NCBI RefSeq assembly: GCF_000003605.2
Contig: NW_003153251.1
Location: 79,159-104,005 of the forward strand
Origin: Saccoglossus kowalevskii
Lineage: Eukaryota > Hemichordata > Enteropneusta > Harrimaniidae
Direction of reading: 5' to 3'
DNA: 24,847 bases
Both the position numbers and the translations under genes were made by a program. This document shows positions 920-24,847 of this stretch, piece after piece. Each line of letters opens with the position of its first letter. Position 1 is the first letter of the stretch. The notes beneath the pieces were generated by a model that worked only from the letters and a program-made list of their open reading frames with translations, was not told where the DNA came from and did no database searches.

Positions 920-1048
920 GCGAGAAGATCACCAGCTTCGTGAGACTCGTACACGTCGCAATGGTGCAGTGGTTTAGCAGGGTACTCGCCAGCAGCCTCG
1001 CATATGGCTTCGTGGAACTGAAATTGCAAAATGTGACTCACGAAGTAC
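920..1048 (-). CDS. ACE: ACE-like exon 11, last exon in the window
   Basis: Encodes residues 518-560: [43 protein letters not shown] plus two bases. Arg518 and Tyr519 match human Arg522 (chloride ligand) and Tyr523 (transition-state residue). The two cysteines form the last ACE disulfide, with a two-residue longer loop than in human. The acceptor is CAACTGTAG and the donor GC|GTGAGT (914-919). No following exon is visible between 1 and 913, so the C-terminal ~60 or more residues lie off the left edge. Confidence 0.93.
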
Positions 1049-4000
1049 CTACAGTTGAAAAACATACATACTTAATAATTAGACGACACGATAAGACGAC
1101 ACTTATGACTCGTTTGCGACTTTTTCGCGAGATTCCCGAGTCCATTGAGTTGTCCACGCGACTATCACGCGCCAAGACGACCTGGCGAGAATAGCATTCA
1201 TAGCTCTTTGTGGTTTTGTTCGCTTATGTGATACAAGTAGACCACTTTTCCGGGAGTCAAAGATACCGCGTTTTAGTTGTATGCGCGCCCGCCAAAACAT
1301 GCACGCGTGATATTGTGCTTCAGAATGTACCAATCGACGCCACAAAAATATAATTCCCTTCTATCGAATATCACTGAGCAAACTGACATGTTTGTATTTT
1401 CCGCCATAACAAAGCAGGCGTATTCTGCACCCCAGTCTTGCTACTTTCGGGAAAGTGGTCCGTAGAAAGTGAAATCTTGCAGCAAGTTACATCCAACATA
1501 CTGTGTCTGAGAAGGAGGTTTTAGTTTTCGGCGTTCGAAACTCTTACTAATTTTTAGTTTAGTTCGCCGTCGACTCTTTTCATTGGTTGCGTTTAGTTGC
1601 TTGTGCACGATTAGTAAACACTTCATAAAACATACCACAACACAACACGACATGGCATGACGCAATAAATACTAGTAGTAACCAAAATTCGTAAACAACG
1701 ACACTAACCTGATGTAGGGAACGTCGGCCGGAACGTGGTATTTTGCGCCAGCATCAAAATCACCCGCCAAATCGGAACGTTTGACTGGCTCCACCACACC
1801 CTGAATACCAGTTCTGAAACAACCGGGCACATGACGTATTTGTTAAATAACAACTTCATGATGATGACGTCAGTCAAGACAATTCCGCGAAAAATTAAAA
1901 GTTGAATAAATCAAAGACGCAATGGGCGCCGAAATCCCGCTGAGAGCGAGAGAGCGACGAGACTTGTTTTGCACCTTGAATGGTGTTCCTTTTTTCAGTC
2001 ATCGCGTCTTCTATTTGTCTGGTATATGTTCATTCTCCTTCCCAGAGTTCCTTGCGGTTAGATCACCGAAAGTATCTCTGCCACCACACACCGCCATTTT
2101 ACTTTTACTACGCCTATTTGTCTCACCTCATATGCCACCACCTTTCATTATAGTTGTATTCAGTAATGGTGCCGTCAAAGATTTCCCATCTCCAGAGGTC
2201 AATGAGTAAACCGAAAGGCAGGAAAGCTACTTTCTGCAAAGCCATCGACATCAGGTAATTCAGATCCGACTCTAGAGAAATGAAATGAGGACATGGTTTG
2301 TTATTTTCCGTCCCAAAGTTAGGAGCAAATATACACACTAAACACATTCAACAATCTTAACGCGAACATGAAAGGGAGTGTTCCACATTCCCTGTAATAT
2401 AGCGTCCAATATTCGAAATATGATGGTTAATTAACCCATGCTAAGGGAGATGCTACTAGTATTTCGTTTTGTGTGCATTTCAATCATGATTGAGAGAAAT
2501 TAGCGAAATATGGGAGTGGTAGTAACGGAAAGCATGTGTAGAGTGGGCTTTTTTTCGAGACACGACCAAGGGGACCCGTTTATCTGTGCAACAGTCAAAG
2601 TCATCATCTTTGTTCATATGAGACTCGTGTCCCGCACATGCTTGGCGCGACGACCACCACCCTAGAATTTTGTTTGGAAGTCTTCAAAAAATAATACGTT
2701 ATTCCTACCCCGAAAAATGATTCGCAAAGAAAATTGAGCCATACATTCGTGCCTTTGAAAACCACTTTAATTACAAGTTTGAAAACTTCAATGACTGGAT
2801 TTCACCTGATTTGTACCTTGGATGTATTGTTAACATCGTTGGTTCACTTGGCTCAGTAAGGAAACGCGGTGTCTAACAGGCTTGCATCCGAATGTGCCAG
2901 ATTAGATTTTTAGGAGATTTAATTAAAATATGTACCAGGCCAAATACAATGTCCAAGGAGGCTCGGGTGCATTTGATTGTCACTCGCTTGAACACTTCCT
3001 TGTTGCATCTCTTGTTATCGCCTTTATTTATTATTCAAACATTATATTAAAGCGGAGGAGTCGTCACCTACGCATGCGCCAGGTGGCCATAGCGTGTCAT
3101 TGTTTACAAACAAGCGTCTACCCATGAGCCTTTGCGTTCATAGCGTGTGTTATCGTCGCTTGGGATTCAATTCTCGCGCATGCGCAGGTGACAACCCTTC
3201 CGCATTAATATGTAGTTACTTGTTGTTCCAAATATGCAAATTATTGTGATGTGACAGACTCCAATATGTCACTTGCCAGCATCATTTGCTGGTTAATTCT
3301 TTAAGACTGGTTGTTCTGAAGCCTTACTAAGCCGAGAAAACTAACTACTCCTAAAGGTTCTTGCCATTTGTAACAGAAGAAACTAGACCGAGAACATGTT
3401 ACAGTGGACGGGAAACTTTCAATTGGATGCTTGTGATGTACTACTATACGGAGGAACTCTGACGTCATAGTCACAGCCTTCCCGTTACCTATTTTCAACA
3501 ACGTGACTTGATGGCTGAATAATTCTACCGCATAGTAAAAACAATATCACACAACAATTCCTCAATATTGATGAAGCGACCGACCTACCCTGATCTTGGA
3601 CAAGTTCCGGTAGTAAACCAACCTCGTAGAGATGTTCCGGTGTCTGGACAGACAGAGATATGGTGTCACCGAGCGCCTCGTGGAAGCCATTGTTGGCGCC
3701 ATCGCGGTATTCAACGGGCTGTGGTGCGTATTGGTAGTAATACTGAGTGTGTCCCATCTCGTGATGAATGGTGATCAAATCCTCGTGATTTACACGTGTA
3801 CACATCTTGATTCTGTCAAATATGCCGGGAAAAATTAGACCTAGCGACCGATGACGTGACGTCATTTAATGCGGTAAGGTGCCAAGATGAACTCGGTCAA
3901 ATATGGTGAATACAATGCGCATGCGCATACAATGGTCTAATTAGTGTGGACAACCTCGTTTTGAAAAACACTAGCGCGCGCATTGCATAAATAAATACGA

Positions 4001-7000
4001 TTCGCGGCGCTAAACTTCTTAGGTTGTGGTTCGTTTTAGATTTTATTATCGACGAATCGTATGCGCAGATGAGATGGGACACACTACTACCAAGTGACGT
4101 ACCATTATACTTCCGTACCTTTATGGTAACCATCTGAATAGGTTGTGCACTCTCAGCCCCGTGACCAGACTCAAATTTTAGAAACGACGCCCACATTTGC
4201 GAAAGGACCCCAAATTATAAGTCGATATTCCACTAGGAGTTGACCAAACATCAAGTCAGGGCAACATAGATTGTTTTTTGTTGTCTAACGTTAACATTTA
4301 GCAACTCAAAATTTTCACCAAAATTTCAACCAAATATCCTCGGGGGCGGAGCTACGTCACAGACGTTCCACGTTGCTAAGACGCGCACCACTGTACCATG
4401 CATTTCTATGGGCTCTGTGCGCGCTGCTGTGGAACGCCGGTCGAGCCGGTGAAAATTCGAGAAAACGACACAAACTCAACTTTGAAGTAATCCATAACAA
4501 TCAAATTTATATATGTTACACACGTAGGGCTAATCTTGTTGCACTGTTCAGAGGAGTCTCAACAATCACCCCAAAGTACCGTTTTCTGTGAGTTTTGGGC
4601 CTTTGTTTTCACCGCCGTGGGTTGCCAGGCGGTGAAAATGCCCGGATGTCCGCCCCCGAGGATTGAGTTATTGGCGACCTATGGTAGATTTTTTAATCTC
4701 TTTGTGACCACCCGGTATGATTGTCTGTTTCAACCTTTGATCTTAGTCATTTGTGAAAGCTTAAACTAAAAAAAATCTAGATTGCCTGTAACTGTTTTCT
4801 CTAATCTGTTAGTTGAATATCAAATTGTAATATTGTGTGGTTTCGCAGAAGAGGGTGTGGTTCCTAAAACTACGCAAAGGGTTGCAATAACATTGTAACT
4901 AGAAATAACTGGATTTCTATTAAAATGCATGCTGTATCCTTGGCAACAAGCTCACCTTGATCTTGGACAAGTTCCGGTAATAAACCGACTTCGTAGAGAT
5001 GTTCCGGTGTCTGGACAGACAGAGATATGGTGTCACCGAGCGCCTCGTGGAAGCCATTGTTGGCGCCATCGCGGTATTCAACGGGCTGTGGTGCGTATTG
5101 GTAGAAGTACTGAGTGTGCCCCATCTCGTGATGAATGGTGATCAAATCCTCGTGATTTACACGTGTACACATCTTGATTCTGTCAAATATGACAGACGAG
5201 TTTAGATGCATGAATGCACAACTACAGCCGAGGACAGAATAACGTGTATATGCGTGTACGCTGAAATTCCGGATACGCGTTTCGAATGACGTCACTAGGC
5301 AATACGTTACGACGACGTTCGATTGGGAGGAACAAATGAGTGCACGAAAACTAATATAGTGGCATTTCAATGTATTCTCAAGGACATCGCGCGTTCCAGG
5401 GAATACACTTCTCCAAGATATAAAACAAATCACCGAAAATCAGAGAAACGTAAGGCAGTTTGGGTTTACCCAAGCGTTTTTCTAATTTCATGCGCGCAAT
5501 TTGAATTATTGTACAATGTGTAGACAACGCGCGCGTGCGTGGCAATCGTTTCAATAGTCGGAACAACCATGCGATTCTGTCCTCGAGTGTAACGTGCTAA
5601 ATGGTTTTTGCAGATGACACGTGGTACAGGATGATGGTACAATGTGGTTTACACTATGGAATTGTAAAGGTAATGTACATTTAATAATATCCGAGGTCTA
5701 TAAACATGAACTTGAATATACAGTGAAAGTCATGAATCTAAGAATGTTTTAAACCTTTTATAAATATATATTTGTAAAAATCAAAATGACTGGTAGAATT
5801 CAAATTGACCAATCCAGAAACGATATGACGACATCATCGGGAGTTCTATTTAATATTAATGAGTTAGTTCAACATCACCAATTAGCAAGTTATACATTTT
5901 GAATAAGTGCGCAGTCGCAGTTGCTACGTCACTTGCAGGTTTGCGCGCGCATTATGGACGCGGACTATGTGAAGCTCTCGGGCCAAATTGGAAGCTGATG
6001 ATCGGTAATTACAAATTGTTTAAAAATATTTTTATAAACCAAATACTGCTTTCACAGTGCTGAACGGTTTTAGTGTTTTGATGACATCCAGTATTTGAAA
6101 CAGCCCAAAGAAGGGTCATAGGTTACAATGATGACGCATAGTCGGGTGCGTATAACGATGTTCAAACCACTCAAGTCATTGGGAAAACGACAAAGAATGT
6201 GATGTCGTCCGAACCACCCAAGTCATTAAGAAAACGAAAAATGATGTGATGACGTCATCTTCAGGAAGTAAGGCTATAAGAAAGGCATAGTTACAGACGT
6301 CTGGCGTGGCGACGTTAATAACACCGTGAGTTTTTTAAACATGTATGTTTTAACAGTAAATATACAACAAATCATCTTGAACATATAGGAAGCAAGTGTA
6401 CAGATAAGGGATTGACCATTGACAATTTTGAGTGTGTATGATGGAAAAAAAATAATGCAGGGAACAATAACAAAATACTGTATGCCTAAATCTTGGTGAA
6501 AAAAACATTCTACGAAGTGTAAAAATAACTTATACTAGCATTATGGGGAAATAGCATAACACTATTTGAAGAAAACAATTATTAGATGGAAGACAAATAT
6601 TTCCGATAATATTTATCACACTAGTACTTTTGCTTAACCCAATCTTTCTGACGTCATAACAATGCATTGTGGGTATATCAATATTTAATACCTGAAATCT
6701 TTCCTGTTGAAAAAATCCCACGCTGAAGCATGGCACGTGACCTCTCGTCCATCATCTGGTTTTTCAAACATGGAATCCTCCCAGAAACTCTGTGGCGATG
6801 GAATCAATCCCATGGATACAAAGAAATCTTCTGATAGTTGGAACATCTGCAGAGCATCGTAACCCTGTAAAATACACAGTTCATATAAATGCGCCCTCTA
6901 GCGACTAATCGTATCGGTAAAACGATTCATAAGTGCGCCCTCTGGCGAAAAATTGCAACGGTAACGCTCAGTTGGCTGGTTTCCGCCTCAGGTGTCATGG

Positions 7001-10000
7001 CGAACCAAGCCACAAGAGGCCGGTAACGAGTAATGAATCCGGCATTCTGATTGGTCAATCACTTTCTTGTTCCTTGTTATATTTCCCTTGGTTACCTGAC
7101 GTCAGCGTTTACGCTCGTGGCCCGAGACCATGGGTTTCCTTTTCCTCTCGAAAGTTGGGTTTCTTTTGTTATAAATTTGCACAGAAACAACGAGAAATGC
7201 CAGAAACATCTCAAATATGCAAGTCTGGGCAGACAGAATGTATGAGCATGGCTTTATTGTAGTATTATAGACACGTTTACGCAAAGCGAAACTTGGAATG
7301 TTTTCAAATTATGTAACACAGTCACGTGCGGAAAACCGGCCCAGTGGAACAATATGGCGATTACCAGTTACCTGCGTTCTACTTGCCATTCGCAGGGAAC
7401 GCCGGGAACCAGCGAATAACGTAGAAGAAATAAAACGATTCATAAGTGCGCCCTCAGTATAAGGAAATAACATTTCCTAAACTACAGGATTAGTGTAATT
7501 CTCTTCCCATTTTGAAGTATTTTTTCTATGACGTTATATGTGCTTGCTGTGTTTGATTAAATTGGGTTATATCGCCCTCTATGGTTGAATTGTGTAAATA
7601 TTTGGGCAGATGTGAATAAATAGTTCTCTTAAATGTTTAAGCCTTGCGTAAGGTGATTTTTTTATTTACTTAAAACAGCTCACAAACTTTGCAGATTTAA
7701 TCAATTCGTCAACAGTTGTATTGGTGGTAAACACGCTGACCAGAACATTATTTTAAGCCTCAGTTACCATTTTTAGATTTTCACTGAACTCGACTGTGGG
7801 GCGAAGTTCAGAATACGATTTTCCTTCAGGCGCTTCAGAGCACACTGAATGTCTGTGTTGTGTATTTGTGACCGAACTATGAACAAACGTATTTAAAGTT
7901 TCTGAACGAGTCTATATTATCACGAACACTTACCTGGTTAATTAATTCGTCTGTAACATCAATGGATGAAGCATTAGGGAATGGTAACACGATGTCGCTG
8001 ATACTCATCCAATCCTGTGCCCACATATTACCTACAAAAAGAAATAATAATGTCAGAAGATGGTTTACATTGACTATTAAGGTAGAATCCTACTCATCCG
8101 GTTAATTTAAGGATATTGACTTAAAACAAAGTTGGGGTCATCTGATTAATTTCCCCAAAAATGATGTTTTTATTTTAGTGAATAATGGCATTTCGGCAAT
8201 GTTATAGTGTTTTACCATGGGTTGCTATGGCAGCGATATTATACCATATCTCAAATTGTAGCCTGGTGACATATTGTCAATGATGGGGTACTTTTTGTTT
8301 CCCTCAATTATTTCAAAACACTGGGTTTTAAAAAGTGCCAAAAAATGCAATTTTTCTTTAACACTGTGTTCTATGGAATTGTTCTAAAAATAGCATTTTT
8401 TGCAAAATAATAGGACAAGTTACCCAAAATACGTCACTGTAACACACAAAAGAATGCTAAGTCGGTTTCGCGTGGGCGCGGCCAATCAGAATTGGCGTAA
8501 CTTACCGTAATGAAATAAAACAAAATGGCGGGTTGTCGAACCAAGGTATTCTCGGACCTACTTCAAAGAAAGTTCTATGCTGCTAAGACGCGCACCACTG
8601 TACCAAACTTATTTTCTTAGACTTAGAGACTTAGAAGTTCTGTATGGCATCAGATTAGTTTTGGCGGTACCACTTTCGCGGATGCCCTGCGGTGTTTGGT
8701 GCTGGTGGTTGTTTCGGCAAAGCGCGATGCCATACAGACATATTTGTTCACTTATTGATTAATAAGCTATATTTAACACCGATTTGTATTAACTTTCATA
8801 TTCATTTCTTTAGTTATTTATCAATTTGGTTAGTTAATCTTCATATTAATATACTTATTTTTGGCCCTCTACTATATACGTTATAATTTACTTCCAATGT
8901 ATATAGGAAATCAGACTAGACTAGCAGTAAGCTATTTTCTGATTTCCTTTTTACCCAATATATATGTGTATTTTTCTTACCATTTGTTTTTTTGTATGGC
9001 TTACTTTTTTTTGCTTTGTTTTGTTTTTTCAGTGTTTCTTATTGTTATTATTATTATTATTGGGTAAATAAATAAATATTGTATATTATATTATGTATTT
9101 CTATGGGCTCTGTGTGAGCTGTTGAGGAACGCCAGTCGTAGAGCCGGTGAAAACAGCAAAAGTCGAGGAAGACAGCACAAACTCAACTTTAATTTGAAGC
9201 AATCCTGAGCAATAGAATGTATATATGTAATCTTCTTCCAACGTTCGGATTTGTTTTAATATCAGTACATCAGCCAGTAAAAGGCCACAAATTGTTCTGA
9301 CATTCCGTGACATGACCTCTAACTTTGACAGATACTTAATATATTACTATTAAATTTACTCACCGGTGATGTGTGCCGGGATGGCTCCGGTTAAACTAAC
9401 GTGTTCTGTTCCATAAACCCCGCTCAACTTTCTTCGTACGTATGCATGTAACTGCTCGTACATAGGCAACACTTCGTCCCACAGTCTCATTACTTCAGCC
9501 TCGAAATCTTCCATTTCATACCAGGATCGCCAGAAGGCACCCATGTCCGGTTGGTCTAGAGACGATGAGACAATAAATCATAATGTAGTTATTAGGTATA
9601 ATACTTAACAGACCTTTGAAGCAAATGACTGCCGAAATCTCGCCGAGATCTCGGCGGCCATTTGCGTGAAGCATTAGCCCCAAGTTACATTCCAACATAA
9701 TAATGACTCACAGAGCAAAACTCCAAATCCAGAGATGACGTCATCATTGTTCACCTCTCAGCAAACCACATGAAGATATCGAACTCGCAATATTTTAATT
9801 GTTGTCGTCAAAGAAACCAATGCTCCAATAAAGTGAACGAGATCATCACATCTTTTGAAACCTGAGACAACATCGGCGAGAAACCTACCACCTGATTCAA
9901 GTCAGTGACGTCGTACAACGTCAATAACTCTTAATCTAAGAGTGCATTCCAATGAGTGAATAGAAAGTGACAAATTAAATTCCAGGGCATCAAATAATAG

Positions 10001-13000
10001 TGAAAGTTCAAAACAGTTGATTTCAATAATTGATTTAATTGGAATGATTTTGTGAATAAAATCATGAATGTAGGCACCTTTATGTAGCTAGTTGCATTTA
10101 CTCCAAGACAAGTACATTATTTTCAAGTTAAGTTGTAAGTTGGATGTAGCACGCAGCCACGTATGTACATTAAACCCAGTCGAAAAGTTGAAATGACCGC
10201 CAACCTTAATTCATCTGCTATTCATTGGTGAGATGTTCACTTTAGAAGTTTTTAAATTATTATCAGCGAATAACGGTGGGCGAATATGATGTGGGTCTAT
10301 TAACACAAAATTCGAAAGCGTGCAGCAGGACGACTACTAGTATAATGCTTTAAATGGCCACACGCGTAATGTTGAAACGAGCTGTTCCATTGGCTAATTC
10401 ACATATACCGTTGAAACGAGCTGTTTTATTGGCTAATTCTTAATTATCGTTGAACAGATCTGCTTCATTTGATACTTTACATATACAATTAAATAGAGCT
10501 GCTCCATCGGCTAATTCACATATATCGTTGAAACGAGCTGTTTTATTGGCCAATTCATACTTACCGTTGAAACAAGTTGCTTCATTGGCTAATTCACACT
10601 TACCGTTCAGAAGAGCTGCTTCGTTGGATAATTCAACATATCTCGGGTACATTGGTTTCATGGGAGGACCACATGTATCACGCCATCCTTCCCATGCCCA
10701 TACCAGTTCACTCCAGTTGCGACTATTGGCCATTACGTCATACAGATCTGTTCGATAGCACACACATACAAAATAGTTTACTTATGCTATTCCATATGAT
10801 GTACAATTGCCCAATGTATCATTTGCATTAAACACAATATCAACGTTCAATGGCGGTGGTCGTCGCGATGCGTCCTGTTCGATATGGGACTCATAGCGAC
10901 GTACACGACACGTGTAAAATACGTTGTTTGTTTATATGAAATTTGAAGAGGCGCTGCGCGACTACCACCACCCCTTCATCAATGTCTCAAAGCGTATAAA
11001 ATAATGTAATACTATAACATTTGATCATTTTTCATTTAAGGGATATCCGTTTCGACTGTTTCAGTAATTTATACGTTCACGATCATCGCAGCGTTATTGC
11101 GTAAGTTTGCAACACTAAACATCACATGTGGTGTAGTTATCGTGATGGTTATTATATAATTATTTGGTTGCTTTGATTGCAGCTCGTTGGTGAAGTGGGC
11201 AATAAGTGGGCACCGATAAACTGTGCGATTCGGACGATGGTCTGTCTGTAATCTAGGCAAGGCAAGTGGCGTATTTGATGACTTGAGTGTACTAATTTGT
11301 GTAATGCCAAGATCAGGAAAATCATCGGTTTGAAAGATCTTAGATTGCAAATGGCCGCCGACATCTCGTTGAGCGCGAGAGCGCCACGACTCGTGATTTT
11401 GTCCCAGAAATACTAGTACTATAGAATTTCAGTCTCCCCGTCATCCCGTCTGCTTTTATATTGAATTGTGTATCCGATCACAGTCCCTCAGGACTGTGCA
11501 TGGTATTTGGAGCATTATTCAAGAGGGAAAAACAAGTATCGTGGCTCTCTCGCGAGATCTTGGTGTACTGCACGCTGTGCCCGAAATCCCATTGTTAATG
11601 TGTGGTATACCGTACAATACCGTTTGTTCTCGGTGTAGTTTACATAGTTCATAAACGCTTTACGAGCTGGTTACCGCGACTTGATGACGTCATAAACGCA
11701 ATTACACGCATGCGCACCGGTACCAGACACCCATGCACGGTGGACTGTTCGCATTCGACACTGGAACCAGTACTAACCTGGGTCCAATGGGTAACATGCA
11801 TCTGGATTTGGATCCCCTGGTTTGTCACATACCTCACCAGTGTTGTAAATAGCCGACATGTCAGCAACTATTTGGTTAAACTAGAAAGTAGTTCAACATT
11901 AGTAGCTCCATTATACAACATACCACAGGCTTTAGAGAATGGGGTTAAACACTTTTCCTTTGATATTATGTAGCATGTAATTTGATATACATTGAAAATG
12001 CTACTTAAGTCAAGTTTTGAGAAAAGCATCACGTGTTATCTTTGAATTGAAAATTAAGTTATGTTCGCCATACTTTCTATACTTTCTATGAGCTCATGCC
12101 ACCGGGATACCGAAAATGAAAAAAATGAGGTCACCAGACATTTTTAGAGATAAAAAATAGAGTCCGAATGGTCATGAAAACTAGTCAACATTATCATTTT
12201 GACACTGGTTTCTAAAACCAAAAGGTTTTATTCATGGAATGAAATTGTCATTTTTGACATGAATAATATTTTGGAAATATTTCAAAAATCGACATATAAT
12301 TTAGTTATTTTTTACTGCCATAGTAGTTGTTTTCTATAATATACATTGTATACGGCTCAAAACGCCCCAACTTACCTCATCGAACTTTTCATCATCCAGC
12401 GCCGCTGCACCGATATAGATGAGGTTCTCTAATCGTCTGTTTGTATCAAATGTGAAATCAGTTCTGTCGAATACCAAAGCACACGTTCGCATGTCCCTGT
12501 CAAAACCACCAGCGACGGATATAGCATCTAACTGATAGAAAAGAAAATAGCACGATATTAAAGCGCAGGGGGTAGTCACCTGCGCACGCGCGGGAATCGA
12601 ATCCCAAACAACAATAACAAGGCATGCTGAAACGCAAATGCTCATGGGTAGACGCTTGTTTGTAAACAATGACACCCTATGGCCACCTGACGCATGCGCA
12701 GGTGACGACTCCCCGCTTTAAGCCTAGTCTGAGTTAATGATAAGGTGAAAAGATGTATCGCTATATCACGATAAAACAGCTGCTGATGTTGAGTAGTTTA
12801 CTCAACATACGTGTGTGCGTACATGATCTGTTTTTTTTTACAGCGACTCAACAAACCCCCTCTACCATATTGTAATAGACATTTCACGATTGCTACACTT
12901 TAGATGTGAACAAATGTTAGAAAATAATTAACGAATTTACATATTTGCAACTTAAATATATTCAAAAATAGACAAATAGTATAATCAATGTTATGCAGCG

Positions 13001-13984
13001 TTAAAGATATGATTTGAATATACTTTTGAATATACCGTCGTTGGTAGCTGCATGCGCATATTCAAACTGCCATACGTTAATTAATTAAATGTTTTGGATT
13101 CGTTAAAAACGCGAAACTTTCACGAATTTTGGAGTGTAAAATAAGTGGTCAAAACTACAAAAACTATACATAGTTAAATCTGATATAATTTATCTGGAAT
13201 ACACTTGGCCATCATTCACGGCGGTGGAATATTGTAAAATCAATACGACTACAAAATAAAACAATTTATTCGAAAATAGATCAAAAAATAGCATATAGAC
13301 TATATTTAGTTGTACGAAAACGGTTTCTGAACTTGTTTGGAAGTCATTTGCGCTTCTTAGTGAATTGTAATTAAGAATAATCTTCATCAACTTTATCGCT
13401 ATTAATTACGTCCAAGGTTGGTTGGTAGATCGGTCAGACCAATCACAGAGAAGCTTGTTTGTTGACAGTTTTTTTTTCGACGAATTAAATTCCGCCTTGT
13501 ATAAATGGTTCGACTCAACTGTAACTGTATTGTAACCCCGGTCTACCTATGTTACGTTGAAGCAAAAAAACTATTGTCATTACTCATCGCGATAAAGTAT
13601 CGACAATATGCAATCATATAAAAAGTCGAAAAAAAACCATGTGCACTCTGAAATGTGCAAGGACGACAGACGATAAAAAAATATTTTCTTATATGTATTC
13701 TGTCTGTACCTGCCTACCAACTTCTTACAAGATAAAATTCACGAAAAGAATTCATTTATTACGTAACTCACCATCACTTGTTGGTTGTACTCGGTGATGT
13801 TAGTCTCATAGTCCCAAGACGCACTAATGGCGGTTGAGTAAATGATCTCTGCATTGGGGTTGTACGTATTATTCAACCAGAGCACGGCCTTAGATTCGTC
13901 TGCAACCGACCCAGCGGGTGCACCGCAGTCTATTTGCGCACGCACAGCGACCAGGGCTGCGCTGAAAAGCAGTAGATAACGCAT
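920..13984 (-). CDS. ACE: ACE-like peptidase M2 gene, 11 exons with duplicated exon 8, 3' end off the window
   Basis: Secreted or surface zinc dipeptidyl carboxypeptidase of the angiotensin-converting-enzyme family, which removes C-terminal dipeptides from peptides outside the cell. Joining the exons below with one exon 8 gives about 560 residues in one frame. It starts with a signal peptide ([16 protein letters not shown], cleavage likely after Ala16). HEMGH is at residues 377-381, the third zinc ligand Glu at 405 in GFHEALGD, and HASAW at 347-351. Lys507, His509, Tyr516, Arg518 and Tyr519 match the substrate and chloride pocket of human testis ACE (511, 513, 520, 522, 523). Cysteines 141/152, 346/364 and 534/548 match the three conserved disulfides. 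All splice junctions are GT-AG and phase-consistent. One catalytic domain is visible. The final ~60 or more residues and any membrane anchor lie beyond the left edge. Family certain; orthology to a particular vertebrate ACE not established. Confidence 0.95.
1709..1813 (-). CDS. ACE: ACE-like exon 10
   Basis: Encodes residues 483-517: [20 protein letters not shown] followed by [14 protein letters not shown], with an Arg codon split at each end. GAKYHVP carries Lys507 and His509, the residues that hold the substrate C-terminal carboxylate in ACE (human Lys511, His513), and Tyr516 matches human Tyr520. The acceptor is TTGTTTCAG and the donor GTTAGT. Found by reading the minus strand between exons 9 and 11. 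Confidence 0.93.
1918..2050 (+). mobile_element. Family C MITE, partial (left end)
   Basis: Begins ATGGGCGCCGAAATCCCGCT followed by GAGAGCGAGAGAGCGACGAG, matching the left ends of the elements at 11348, 15962 and 23806. The right GGCCGCC end is not recognisable; the right limit given is approximate. It lies in intron 9, close to the exon 9 donor. Confidence 0.55.
2127..2271 (-). CDS. ACE: ACE-like exon 9
   Basis: Encodes residues 435-482: [40 protein letters not shown] and YNERWWHM, then two bases of an Arg codon. It matches human DINFLMKMALDKIAF...[22 protein letters not shown]. The acceptor is TTTCTCTAG (AG 2272-2273) and the donor GTGAGA (2121-2126). The frame continues past the acceptor for about 20 codons, but that part has no ACE homology and is intron. 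Confidence 0.94.
2587..2668 (+). mobile_element. Family B element, right-end fragment
   Basis: Matches the right ends of the family B elements at 18041-18310 and 23018-23650: AGTCAAAGTC, TTTGTTCATATGAGAC, then GCGCGACGACCACCACCCT. The left part is not convincing. Confidence 0.5.
3047..3208 (+). mobile_element. Family A MITE, copy 1 (TTAA ends)
   Basis: 162 bp from TTAA (3047) to TTAA (3205). Imperfect terminal inverted repeats AAGCGGAGGAGTCGTCACCT and the complement of GCATGCGCAGGTGACAACCC. The core contains TTGTTTACAAACAAGCGTCT and CCCATGAGCCTTTGCGTT, shared by all five copies. No coding capacity. TTAA target sites suggest mobilisation by a piggyBac-type transposase. Located in the intron between exons 8B and 9. 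Confidence 0.85.
3589..3812 (-). CDS. ACE: ACE-like exon 8B (downstream copy): zinc site, Tyr variant
   Basis: Second copy of the zinc-site exon, 1,143 bp downstream of 8A in transcription order, with the same length, phases and encoded segment. HEMGH and the third zinc Glu are intact, so it is not a decayed copy. The only protein difference is Tyr for Phe at residue 385 (HTQYYYQY here, HTQYFYQY in 8A). The acceptor shares 12 bp with 8A (CATATTTGACAG). The donor is CAGG|GTAGGT instead of GTGAGC. Beyond these edges the two loci are not alignable by eye. It is best read as a mutually exclusive alternative exon. Confidence 0.9.
4338..4661 (+). mobile_element. Family D MITE, full-length, between exons 8A and 8B
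   Basis: 324 bp bounded by exact 13-bp inverted repeats CCTCGGGGGCGGA (4338-4350) and its complement (4649-4661). The interior GTTGCTAAGACGCGCACCAC, GAACGCCGGTCG and CACAAACTCAACTTTGAAGT recurs at 8570-9222 and 21753-22059. No protein coded. Confidence 0.75.
4956..5179 (-). CDS. ACE: ACE-like exon 8A (upstream copy): zinc site, Phe variant
   Basis: Encodes the catalytic core, residues 360-434: [49 protein letters not shown] and [15 protein letters not shown]. It contains both zinc-binding histidines (377, 381), the catalytic Glu378 and the third ligand Glu405. The residue matching human Phe391 is Phe385. The acceptor is ATATTTGACAG (AG at 5180-5181) and the donor CAAG|GTGAGC. The length is 224 nt, entering in phase 2 and leaving in phase 1, so it cannot be combined with 8B in one open frame. 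8A and 8B differ at 7 bases by eye, only one of them changing a residue. Confidence 0.94.
6163..6256 (+). repeat. Two-copy tandem repeat, 47 bp
   Basis: ACCACTCAAGTCATTGGGAA and ACCACCCAAGTCATTAAGAA lie 47 bp apart, each followed by AACGA...ATGTGATG. The second copy ends in a TGACGTCA palindrome. In intron 7. Confidence 0.7.
6692..6864 (-). CDS. ACE: ACE-like exon 7: HASAW segment
   Basis: Encodes residues 303-359 and two bases of 360: [65 protein letters not shown] is the substrate-backbone-binding strand of ACE (human C352-H353-A354-S355-A356). The acceptor is TTTTACAG and the donor a weaker GTATTA. It ends in phase 2, which either copy of exon 8 accepts. The weak donor precedes the duplicated exon choice, which is a plausible setting for regulated splicing. 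Confidence 0.93.
6918..6942 (+). repeat. Left copy of an exact 25-bp direct repeat
   Basis: Identical to 7431-7455 (starts TAAAACGATTCATAAGTGCG, ends CCCTC). The pair encloses 488 bp of intron 6 immediately beyond the exon 7 acceptor. Confidence 0.85.
6943..7430. other. 488-bp segment between direct repeats in intron 6
   Basis: No protein similarity or transposon termini recognised. A 109-codon plus-strand frame (6933-7262) crosses it but has no features of a gene. Confidence 0.4.
7431..7455 (+). repeat. Right copy of an exact 25-bp direct repeat
   Basis: Identical to 6918-6942; both end in the GCGCCCTC motif of the short element family seen at 694-894. Confidence 0.85.
7934..8031 (-). CDS. 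ACE: ACE-like exon 6
   Basis: Encodes residues 270-302: [20 protein letters not shown] followed by [18 protein letters not shown] and the VPFP-like segment are hallmarks of peptidase M2. The acceptor is TTTTTGTAG and the donor GTAAGT. Its in-phase (1) and out-phase (0) agree with exons 5 and 7. It is a 98-nt exon found from its splice sites and family homology. Confidence 0.93.
8570..9222 (+). mobile_element. Family D element split by a ~490-bp insertion
   Basis: The left part (8570-8605, GCTGCTAAGACGCGCACCAC) and right part (9093-9222, GTATTTCTATGGGCTCTGTG and CACAAACTCAACTTTAA) match the 4338 element. About 487 bp (8606-9092) sits exactly where that element continues. Outer ends are decayed. 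Lies in intron 5. Confidence 0.65.
8606..9092. other. AT-rich insertion within family D element
   Basis: Contains a 100-bp sub-segment (8639-8738) bounded by exact 13-bp inverted repeats TCTGTATGGCATC, and a second hairpin GGAAATCAG...CTGATTTCC near 8906-8948, then a very AT-rich tail. No clear target duplication or known transposon ends. Confidence 0.45.
9364..9555 (-). CDS. ACE: ACE-like exon 5
   Basis: Encodes residues 206-269 plus a split codon: [20 protein letters not shown], then a helical stretch with [14 protein letters not shown] and AIPAHITG. It matches human SWRSMYE...LHAYVRRALHRHYG...GPIPAHLLG. The acceptor is CTCTAG (AG at 9556-9557) and the donor GTGAGT (9358-9363); phase 1 at both ends (192 nt). 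Confidence 0.94.
9623..9667. mobile_element. Collapsed family C element: two ends joined as a palindrome
   Basis: About 44-bp near-perfect palindrome, CAAATGACTGCCGAAATCTC joined to CGAGATCTCGGCGGCCATTTG (ends only). Each arm equals a family C terminus, so this looks like an element that lost its whole interior. Located in intron 4 close to exon 5. Confidence 0.65.
10362..10634 (-). repeat. 39-bp tandem repeat made from the exon 4 end and its splice donor, 7 units
   Basis: Seven consecutive 39-bp units on the minus strand, starting at 10634, 10595, 10556, 10517, 10478, 10439 and 10400. Unit 1 is real coding sequence plus the functional GTAAGT donor; the others are diverged copies. Unit 2 keeps GTAAGT, unit 6 has GTATAT, and units 3, 4, 5 and 7 have lost the GT. 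The frame is open from exon 4 through units 1-5 and ends at a TAA (10440-10442). The translated unit reads like [13 protein letters not shown], repeating every 13 residues. Confidence 0.92.
10604..10747 (-). CDS. ACE: ACE-like exon 4, with tandemly repeated 3' end
   Basis: Encodes residues 158-205 (split codons at both ends): [20 protein letters not shown], then [20 protein letters not shown] and SNEAALLN. It matches human [24 protein letters not shown]. The acceptor is CGAACAG. The donor at 10598-10603 is GTAAGT. The last 31 bases plus the donor form unit 1 of a seven-unit 39-bp tandem repeat (10362-10634). A second intact donor exactly 39 bp downstream (exon end 10565) would extend the exon in frame by 13 residues, [13 protein letters not shown]. 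Confidence 0.92.
10849..10980 (+). mobile_element. Short family B-like inverted-repeat element
   Basis: About 130 bp bounded by GGCGGTGGTCGTCGCGATGCG and GCGCTGCGCGACTACCACC, imperfect inverted repeats resembling family B ends. The interior has TTGTTTATATGA as in the 18041 copy. Lies in intron 3 near exon 4. Confidence 0.5.
11348..11568 (+). mobile_element. Family C MITE copy in intron 3
   Basis: Left end CAAATGGCCGCCGACATCTC and GTTGAGCGCGAGAGCGCCACG. The right end keeps CGTGGCTCTCTCGCGAGATCT but has lost the GGCCGCC terminus. Interior TGGTATTTGGAG matches the 15962 copy. Confidence 0.65.
11778..11880 (-). CDS. ACE: ACE-like exon 3
   Basis: Encodes residues 124-157 plus one base: [18 protein letters not shown] through ACYPLDP. 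It matches human LLDMETTYSVATVC...LEPDL, and the two cysteines (141, 152) correspond to the first ACE disulfide. The acceptor is CTTTCTAG and the donor G|GTTAGT. This exon is too short and fragmented to stand out as an open reading frame; it was found by reading the minus strand between exons 2 and 4. Confidence 0.92.
12376..12531 (-). CDS. ACE: ACE-like exon 2
   Basis: Encodes residues 72-123, from LDAISVAGG to [13 protein letters not shown], the helical region before the first disulfide (compare LERAALPAQELEEYN in human ACE). The acceptor is TTTTCTATCAG and the donor GTAAGT; both ends are phase 0, so this 156-nt exon could be skipped without a frameshift. The reading frame also runs upstream into a MITE, but the acceptor and homology place the exon start at 12531. 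Confidence 0.9.
12558..12721 (-). mobile_element. Family A MITE, copy 2, abutting exon 2 acceptor
   Basis: 164 bp, TTAA to TTAA, core in reverse orientation to copy 1. It ends only 25 bp before the AG of exon 2; its terminal CTTTAAT matches the animal branch-point consensus. Confidence 0.85.
13431..13505 (+). repeat. Dispersed repeat F, copy 1
   Basis: GGTCAGACCAATCACAGAGA, AGCTTGTTTGTTGACAGTTT and TTCGACGA parallel 15268-15322. In intron 1, close to exon 1. Confidence 0.55.
13772..13984 (-). CDS. ACE: ACE-like exon 1: signal peptide and domain start
   Basis: Encodes residues 1-71. The ATG at 13982-13984 is followed by a short basic-hydrophobic signal peptide and the mature start QIDCGAPAG. 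The exon ends with [17 protein letters not shown], which aligns with the ANWNYNTNIT segment of human ACE. NNT and NIT are possible N-glycosylation sites. The donor is GTGAGT (13766-13771), phase 0. The start was chosen because it is the only ATG giving a signal peptide and it lies just below a TATA box. Confidence 0.93.
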
Positions 13985-14044: not shown

Positions 14045-14583
14045 ACTGAAAACACGCCTTCTTGATAACCACCTGCCGATTCACTCAGTGTTTTTTCCAG
14101 ATCGCGATTCGTATTAATTTATCAACTTGATAACTGATATTTCTCATCGTTCTGGTGCATTTAAGGTCACTGGAACCAATGTAACTTCAAGCGTTAGCGT
14201 AACACCTGTTTACGTTTTGCGCGCGTGCGCAGTTACTGGTTGGCAAGAACCGGTCGTTCGCATCCGAAGATAAAACGGCGTTCAACACTGTTTCTGTCAT
14301 TAAAATACATGTATGTGTCCATTTTAATAAAACTTATGGACAATGTTGTCACAGCAGATCGCGAGCAAGTGTTGACCCGTGAGCGACATTTGTTATCGTA
14401 TATTTGCAAGATGGTTCGCAAAAACGTAAACATGTGACGTCACAACGCGTGTACATTGTTTGGAACAGAACTTGCATGTGTGGAACTTACATGTGTGTCG
14501 GTGATTAGTTTCTTGATATAAATATCAGGTCAAATAACGTTTTATTTTTAATAATGAATGTCAATCACTGAAATAGTCACAGT
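14045..14583. other. Upstream flank of the ACE-like gene
   Basis: No coding sequence seen. Contains the TGACGTCA at 14435 and GCGCGTGCGC near 14220. Probable promoter-proximal region of the ACE-like gene, or between divergent genes. Confidence 0.4.
14435..14442. promoter_or_regulatory. TGACGTCA palindrome upstream of the ACE-like promoter
   Basis: Perfect CREB/ATF-type palindrome about 410 bp upstream of the TATA box. It is one of ten in the window (others at 1865, 3460, 3857, 5287, 6250, 6649, 7097, 9736 and 11685), all between 1.8 and 14.5 kb and all but this one in introns. Binding is inferred only. Confidence 0.4.
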
Positions 14584-14737
14584 TTAAAACGGGAGGGTCG
14601 TCCCCTGCGCACGCGCGGAAATTGACGATAACAACACCTCGCTAAAACGCAAAGGTTCATGGGTGGACGCTTTCTTGTAAACAATGACACGCCATGGCCA
14701 TCTGGCGCATGCGCAGGTGACGACTCCCCCGCTTTAA
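14584..14737 (-). mobile_element. Family A MITE, copy 3
   Basis: 154 bp, TTAA to TTAA, same inverted ends and reversed core. It lies about 550 bp upstream of the ACE-like TATA box and carries an NRF1-like TGCGCACGCGCG at 14606. Confidence 0.85.
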
Positions 14738-15263
14738 TGAAAGGTGAAGGTTGAAATTTATTTATATGCAAATGTGTTTACGGGTAGGATACAGGTTCAA
14801 GTTTTGCCCGCAATGTATGCATTATCACATATTCATCAGTACACATCAGAATAATAAAACTGAATGATTCATTTACGCTCCCGAGTGTATACTTGTTTTT
14901 CTGTTCCGTTAAAATTTCAACTTTGTCGCAACCTTGTTATCGGATATCCGAATAGTGTAGCGGAGCGGCACGTTCCATGTGAAGTGTTGTTTACGTTTTG
15001 AGTGTGTTTATTACACCTGTATCTTAGTTCAAACGGCCAAACTGATGCGAAATTGTCAGTGATAACCGAAATTATTCCAAAATATTTCGCATATTAATAT
15101 TCATGTTCTTAAAAAATGTGTTTCTTCTTTTTCTTTTGCGAAAAAAAATACCTATTAACGTAATAAATAGCTGCCCATGCCAAGTGTATCGGTACGGTTT
15201 CAACCATCTTCGAATCTTCTTGTAAGATTATGTCTGATTGGCCAGCCAACCCAAACACCAAAC

Positions 15264-16516: not shown

Positions 16517-16681
16517 TTAAGGCGGGGAAGCCGTCACTTTCGCATGCGTCAGATGGCCATAGCCTGTTGTTGTTTACAAACAAGCGTCTGTCCATGAGCC
16601 TTTGCGTTTTTAGCATCCGTTGTTATCGTCGCTTGGGATTCAATTCACACGCATGCGCAGATGACGACCCCTACACGTTAA
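16517..16681 (+). mobile_element. Family A MITE, copy 4
   Basis: 165 bp, TTAA to TTAA, core in the same orientation as copy 1. It starts shortly after the GATTT pentanucleotide repeat. Confidence 0.85.
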
Positions 16682-18310: not shown

Positions 18311-18647
18311 CGGAAACAATTGATAGAGTTGGGAACGTTTCATTGAATGAAATTAAACACATGTATGTTTCCACGTATTGTTTTAAAGGACACTGACTGT
18401 TTACTAAGCAAAGATCAGTTGAACAATACGCAGCTGAGAGCTTTATCGATCTGACGAGCTTGGAGTTTATACAAGAAATTATGACACGGGGTCAAATAGT
18501 TATTCAATCAAATCCACGCATCAAGTCAACGTGGCATTCATATATGGAGGCGATAAAATTTCAGCTTTTCATATCTCTTTAATGTGGTAGTTTGGTACCA
18601 TTGAAACAAATGTTCGTTTTCCCTTTGCGTTTACACTACGGTTTAAT

Positions 18648-18798
18648 TTAAAGTGGGAGGGTCGCCACCTGCGCACGCGCGGGAATTGAGTTCAAAAGGA
18701 CGCTAAATCGCAGAGGCTCATGGGTAGACGCTTGTTTGTAAACAATGACACGCTATGGCCATTTGACGCATGCGCAGGTAACGACTCACCCGCTTTAA
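18648..18798 (-). mobile_element. Family A MITE, copy 5
   Basis: 151 bp, TTAA to TTAA, reversed core with a short deletion where copies 1, 2 and 4 have the GTTATCGTCGCTTGGGATTC segment or its complement. Confidence 0.85.
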
Positions 18799-19308
18799 TG
18801 TCATTGTTCACAAAACCCAGATAAAAATATACTAGTATGGTTACAGAACAACTTTTCGCAAAGGTCACACATCAATGAAAATGTTCATTTTGGGCCAAAT
18901 ACCATTGATTCCCGTAGTGAAAAGTTTTTCAACATCTATCAAGTGTCATTTTGTTGCTTATGGTGGGAACACTATCTGTAGTTATAAGTTGGATACTTGC
19001 GGTTGTCAGGAGATATCAGGACATTCTGGTGACTACGTTTCATTTGCTATGAAATTACGCCTACATGATGGCTCGCGATGGAAATTGTTCCCTAAAAAAT
19101 ATTTCGAACTGTGAAAAAAAGTCAATAAATCAATAATTATGTGATTAATTAATAATTATTACTTTTAAATCAAACGAATGTGGTAATTTTTTGGCCCTTT
19201 GTGAGATCGAACCCCTGCGATCGACTTTGACATTCGGATGCTCTGTGACCTCTGTTGTAATTACTCATCAAATACATGTAGGTGTCATTTGTAAATGCAT
19301 GGACACAT

Positions 19309-24440: not shown

Positions 24441-24847
24441 ACTTTCTTCATGCTACACTGTACTACCACTATAATACACTGCACTTTCTCCATGCTACAC
24501 TGTACTACCCCTATAATACACTGCACTTTCTCCATGCTACACTGTACTACCACTATAATACACTGCACTTTCTCCATGCTACACTGTACTACCACTATAA
24601 TACACTGCACTTTCTCCATGCTACACTGTACTTCCCCTGTACTAAACTGTAGTATCCATATGCTACATTGTACCACCTGTATGCTACACTGTACTACCTT
24701 TATGCTACATTGTACTACCTTCATGTTATACTGTACTACCTTCATGCAGAATTGTACTACCTTCATGCTACAATGTATTCTCTATTCTACAATGTACTCT
24801 CTATTCTACACTGTACTACCCCTGTGCTATACTGTACTACCCATATG
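24441..24847. repeat. 21/42-bp minisatellite running off the right edge
   Basis: Units resembling CTACACTGTACTACCTTCATG (first 20 shown as pattern) repeat every 21 bp. From about 24441 to 24630 two variant units alternate as a 42-bp higher-order repeat (about 4.5 copies). To the right it is a plain 21-bp array. Because 21 is divisible by 3, the minus strand stays open for 156 codons (24296-24766), but that frame has no sign of being a gene. Confidence 0.92.

Follow-up and report, generated by a model that had tools for sequence, protein, structure and literature searches.

Tandem Phe and Tyr copies of the zinc-site exon in an ACE-like gene of the acorn worm Saccoglossus kowalevskii

Can a single gene of the ACE family provide two forms of its active site by choosing between two copies of one exon? 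The question is raised by a locus of the acorn worm Saccoglossus kowalevskii that lies in a stretch of 24,847 nucleotides (nt) of DNA (C4306:79159-104005; hereafter the window), which contains no N letters. The gene on its minus strand is, by similarity, an ACE-like protease (Pfam PF01401 / peptidase M2). Its zinc-site exon, exon 8, is present twice in tandem, as exons 8A and 8B, between single exons 7 and 9, and the two copies are identical at 217/224 positions. Two forms of the enzyme may therefore come from one gene. The explanation that we favor, and consider reasonably probable, is that a lineage-specific duplication of the zinc-site exon lets one domain be made with either Phe or Tyr, the two forms being exclusive mainly by reading frame. 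Statements on splicing rest on genomic sequence and on one predicted protein, the NCBI prediction P0241. The features that bear on the duplicated exon are, in window positions:

Exon 7, 6692..6864, minus strand: donor CAG/GTATTA, common to both exon 8 choices
Exon 8A, 4956..5179, minus strand: 224 nt, the Phe copy
Non-silent site in 8A, 5105, minus strand: middle base of TTC (Phe), exon position 75
Intron between the copies, 3813..4955, minus strand: 1143 nt
Exon 8B, 3589..3812, minus strand: 224 nt, the Tyr copy, the one used in P0241
Non-silent site in 8B, 3738, minus strand: middle base of TAC (Tyr)
Exon 9, 2127..2271, minus strand: 49/49 amino acids (aa) in P0241

8A and 8B have the same open frame and entry phase, are preceded by AG and followed by GT, and encode IKMCTRV ... 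HEMGH ... GFHEALGD ... VQDQ. Their homology comprises 12 nt of the upstream intron, the exon and the donor GT; longer flanks do not align. A repeat search of the window recovers the same pair, and a whole-genome DNA search with exon 8A finds two copies only, on one contig. For a repeat of 224 nt that is 97% identical and in matching phase, chance is excluded. These observations bear out much of a preliminary description of this DNA, which had claimed two intact 224-nt exons of equal phase (both are found on the minus strand, at 4956..5179 and 3589..3812), good splice sites (AG and GT at both copies, usable by in-gene scoring), a whole catalytic core in each (HEMGH and GFHEALGD in both), and an ACE-like gene with a duplicated zinc-site exon (PF01401 similarity, with exon 8 matching twice within the window and every other exon of the gene once). 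Single human ACE domains match the gene with E values of 1e-171 to 1e-180 over most of the model. H377, E378, H381 and E405, the putative HEXXH motif and downstream Glu ligand, are invariant across a 14-sequence alignment.

The length of the exon, a multiple of three plus 2, sets the frame. In scripted joins with both copies, the eighth codon counted from the 8A/8B junction is a stop; with neither copy, the frame closes in exon 9. An enzyme results only from single inclusion, and therefore the frame ensures exclusivity at the protein level. Mutually exclusive exons are recognized by length, splice sites, phase, similarity and adjacency (PMC3228551; this and the other papers cited are drawn on in extract), and exons 8A and 8B, as adjacent internal exons, agree in all of these. 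The pair had been described as apparently mutually exclusive. That description holds for the arrangement (length, phase, splice-site type, homology and adjacency) and for the frame rule; exclusion may act at splicing or through loss of frameshifted RNA. In a small matrix built from the gene itself, the splice sites of 8A (acceptor 7.5 bits, donor 8.1 bits) score better than those of 8B (acceptor 3.2 bits, donor 5.8 bits), and the donor of exon 7 has the lowest score of the gene, 1.1 bits. Steric exclusion is ruled out as the means of exclusivity because the intron between the copies, at 1143 nt, is too long. Mixed U2/U12 introns are not indicated by the four borders, all of which are GT-AG; no scan for the U12 consensus was made. 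The intron before 8A also holds an 18-nt inverted repeat (5223-5240 and 5574-5591, 89% complementary) that could form a hairpin; its nearer arm is about 43 nt away from the 8A acceptor.

The copies differ at exon positions 61, 73, 75, 190, 193, 200 and 223. Six of the seven differences are silent, and the peptides differ at one residue, Phe (TTC) in 8A and Tyr (TAC) in 8B, directly after HEMGHTQY. NG86 estimates of non-silent (dN) and silent (dS) divergence are 0.006 and 0.14. The probability of at most one non-silent change among seven random ones is 0.0007, or 0.0013 with transition bias. Because six of the seven differences are silent, selection appears to have acted on both copies since their last common sequence.

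The residue that differs has a known counterpart in human ACE. The aligned position is occupied by Phe391 in the C-domain (QYFMQY) and by Tyr369 in the N-domain (QYYLQY), both part of the S2 subsite, and the replacement Y369F weakens binding of an N-selective inhibitor 36-fold (PMC3875237). The S2 rows of a published subsite table give Phe391 and Tyr369 (PMC12025037), the residue at this site has been termed key for ligand selectivity (PMC4585900), and its location and role in selectivity are agreed among PMC11880972, PMC4585900 and PMC12025037. The preliminary description had spoken of two catalytic variants. The predicted products do differ, but the zinc site is the same in both and the sole change is Phe/Tyr in the S2 pocket.

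Both residues are common at this site in related proteins. Among the best 120 of 7955 homologs, 123 motifs comprise 82 with F, 38 with Y and 3 with D, and 4 proteins have no motif by the pattern used; a set of 360 proteins yields 502 motifs (F 230, Y 190, Q 73, D 6, others 3), with 2 proteins lacking the motif. Proteins with exactly two motifs have Y first and F second in 100/110 cases. These counts come from best-hit lists that are highly redundant, and the two-motif set is, by name, mostly vertebrate.

In the mechanism that we propose, an ancestral ACE zinc-site exon would have been duplicated in this lineage, in tandem and exactly at its borders, and both copies would be used in RNA. The mature message would take either 8A or 8B. 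Messages with both or neither would be frameshifted with an early stop, and would be lost by nonsense-mediated decay or yield truncated protein. The two products would be equal save in the S2 pocket, with Phe from 8A (C-domain-like) or Tyr from 8B (N-domain-like), and this choice would tune peptide preference.

Several points weigh against this explanation. P0241, a prediction and the sole hint of copy use, shows 8B alone: it bridges exons 7-8B-9 only, and it agrees with the window gene at 490/490 residues with 8B and 489/490 with 8A. The effect of the residue may be small, as the preference of the N-domain for Ac-SDKP is just about 2-fold (PMC4585900), and some inhibitors built for contacts with Tyr369/Arg381 bind the C-domain better (PMC11880972). 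At the other S2 position that bears on selectivity (Arg381/Glu403), 8A and 8B both encode Asp, so the resemblance of 8B to the N-domain does not extend to that position. Phe and Tyr, one base apart, are also the residues that the variable site commonly holds; because this alternation is common, the single difference may be due to chance, and the site was picked for study after the difference had been seen. A silent copy could equally stay clean through conversion by its functional counterpart. Finally, the longest complementary runs between the introns are, in this one species, within the range of 8 shuffles each, and intron duplex energies are matched or bettered by most of 18-20 shuffles, a whole-intron duplex being a poor test. 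Pairing of intronic RNA as a docking and selector system of the Dscam type was rejected, as complementarity does not exceed that of shuffled sequence.

The strongest rival, which we regard as possible and clearly less likely than the favored explanation, is that a single copy is used. The other copy would be recent and unused or rarely spliced, and either not yet decayed or kept clean by gene conversion. The presence of 8B alone in the NCBI model agrees with this, and with just 7/224 differences decay need not show yet. The differences fall in two clusters around an identical run of 114 nt (P about 0.05 when all sites are counted and 0.15 for third positions), which is weakly compatible with conversion. 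Against single-copy use, six silent differences of seven have a probability of about 0.001 in an unconstrained copy, a pattern that conversion could mimic, and splice sites and frame are kept in both copies.

A more far-reaching version of the use of both copies is speculative and rather unlikely. Splicing would re-create the vertebrate distinction between N- and C-domain, with Phe/Tyr in S2 as the toggle and the rest of the exon held by selection and conversion, and possible read-through into the Phe-type domain of the neighboring ACE gene would give Y-F or F-F two-domain enzymes.

This neighbor, ACE-b, is a second ACE gene in tandem downstream (C4306, about 53.3-72.9 kb; L003, L004, L032), with its own signal-peptide-like first exon. 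A protein search of the genome gives 26 matches, which fall in the window gene, in ACE-b, on C2039 and C3898 and, in part, on C357. The C357 match adjoins an N run, and exon 8 is not seen there. Exon 8 is single in ACE-b and in the paralogs on C2039 and C3898; in all three it measures exactly 224 nt, keeps the phase of 8A and 8B and encodes Phe where these differ. The duplicated unit is therefore the ancestral exon. Among the four loci that are readable at exon 8, the window gene alone has two copies. Nine exon stretches of the C3898 paralog are identical to residues 203-648 of the NCBI S. kowalevskii protein P0065 at 445/446 positions, the odd residue lying at an exon junction; for P0065 residues 1-202, no exact stretch of at least 12 residues is present in the two loci examined, the first of which starts in an N run. 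Together with the identity of the S. kowalevskii prediction P0241 to the window gene, this is taken to assign the genome to that species.

That 8A and 8B stem from different genes, or from a chimera of tandem ACE genes, is suggested by the tandem neighbor and by the fusion of both genes in P0241, but is very improbable, because exon 8 alone matches twice within the window gene, and the exon 8 that P0241 includes for ACE-b agrees with 8A at just 53/77 and with 8B at just 50/74 residues. An assembly artifact that set two haplotypes of exon 8 in tandem would agree with the 3% exon divergence, which is within the range of heterozygous marine animals, but is hardly credible and was rejected: the flanks are unrelated up to the exon, whereas two haplotypes should have them in common, no N interrupts the window, and the genome search with 8A finds these two copies on one contig.

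The duplication assumed in the favored explanation can be placed relative to another protein of the species. P0002 is 73% identical to the window gene model and has no near-identical place in the assembly, where its best match (82%) is the window gene; its gene may lie in a gap, for example in the N run just past the high end of the window. P0002 agrees with the copies at 61/74 and 60/74 residues, and 13 differences in 74 residues are common to 8A and 8B. Therefore the duplication, or the last homogenization, came after the split from P0002. At a dS of 0.14, a plain tandem duplication should have left neutral intron flanks that can still be aligned, and the flanks here are unrelated. Therefore the duplication was exon-exact, or else conversion renewed the exon within older flanks.

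The surroundings of the copies offer some leads on origin. Within the intron between them, about 4160-4659 is dispersed repeat and adjoins the approximately 350 nt nearest to 8B. These 350 nt, on the 8A side of 8B, have no other genome match among 40 scored candidates of 63, and the approximately 530 nt upstream of 8A have none among 40 scored of 207; the searches pass over very common words and do not prove single-copy status. That 8B was the cargo of a repeated mobile element was rejected on these results, which cover one flank of each copy. The two units of a 9-nt direct repeat begin 39 nt ahead of 8B and 5 nt behind it (P 0.02 by mononucleotide shuffling). As about 18 nt enclosed by them find no counterpart at 8A, a target-site duplication is a lead only.

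The gene as a whole comprises exons 1-11, running from 13984 down to 920. Its remaining exons are:

Exon 1, 13772..13984, minus strand: ATG, GT donor, 213 nt; N-terminus signal-peptide-like by eye
Exon 2, 12376..12531, minus strand: 52/52 aa in P0241
Exon 3, 11778..11880, minus strand: exact in P0241
Exon 4, 10604..10747, minus strand: 3' end and donor are part of a 39-nt tandem array
Exon 5, 9364..9555, minus strand: from the scripted gene model and comparison with P0241
Exon 6, 7934..8031, minus strand: from the scripted gene model and comparison with P0241
Exon 10, 1709..1813, minus strand: from the scripted gene model and comparison with P0241
Exon 11, 920..1048, minus strand: final exon inside the window

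P0241 has 1119 aa and belongs to a cluster of two members. Among the best 120 of 1023 proteins of 118-376 aa that resemble exons 7-10, none exceeds 62% identity, and the window gene was recovered only as this longer prediction. Its first residue is the last codon of exon 1, and 957/1119 residues are exact in the window and neighboring stretches; the longer missing stretches would lie in N runs. The residues after exon 11 have no match in the flanks examined and would be encoded in the N run past base 1 of the window. The prediction fuses the window gene to ACE-b and omits the signal-peptide-like start of ACE-b. Parts of the model may be wrong, because this start has no match in P0241.

The array at exon 4 (10371-10645) consists of 6.9 copies of a 39-nt, 13-codon unit. 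Its first unit forms the 3' end of the exon with its GTAAGT donor, which is the donor used in P0241. ACG/GTAAGT recurs in the next unit at 10565, and the frame is open down to 10440; alternative exon 4 donors could add 13 residues per step. A dispersed repeat family with members about 82-89% alike occurs in both orientations at 3046-3211, 12555-12721, 14583-14739, 16517-16671 and 18647-18800, the first two of which sit in introns of the ACE gene. A tandem repeat with a period of about 42 nt occupies 24441-24841, at the high end of the window.

Tandemly duplicated, mutually exclusive exons are already known; an example in the active site of ACE with a one-residue difference would add to them. 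No report of alternative, duplicated or mutually exclusive ACE active-site exons was found in the open-licence literature, subscription papers lying outside this search, and nothing there contradicts the remark in the preliminary description that no alternative catalytic exon was known in this family. The papers there that mention ACE together with hemichordates concern, by their listing, tachykinins and serpins, and the one that mentions it together with mutually exclusive splicing concerns, by its title, glucose metabolism in liver cancer. If the favored explanation is true, this would be the first exon switch in an ACE-family active site as far as that literature reaches, and nature would have singled out Phe391/Tyr369, the S2 residue on which inhibitor design relies to tell the human ACE domains apart. 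As a young pair, exons 8A and 8B also allow study of how frame incompatibility gives rise to mutually exclusive splicing.

The pair resembles other tandemly duplicated exons in being homologous, adjacent and internal, with equal length and phase. Exon length makes joint inclusion frame-breaking, as it does in 377 (60%) of human mutually exclusive exon clusters (PMC5740500). Most human events of this kind are old, with orthologs in bony fish for more than 90% (PMC9741552), whereas 8A and 8B are nearly identical and the three other ACE loci readable at this exon lack the pair. The hemichordate ACE-like proteins P0004 (F) and P0005 (Y) of Glandiceps talaboti are closely related and show the same alternatives, but they are separate annotated proteins with many further differences. 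The two-domain somatic ACE of vertebrates likewise has Y in its N-domain and F in its C-domain at the same S2 position. There, the alternatives stand in two domains of one chain; in the acorn-worm gene they belong to one domain and arose by duplication of an exon.

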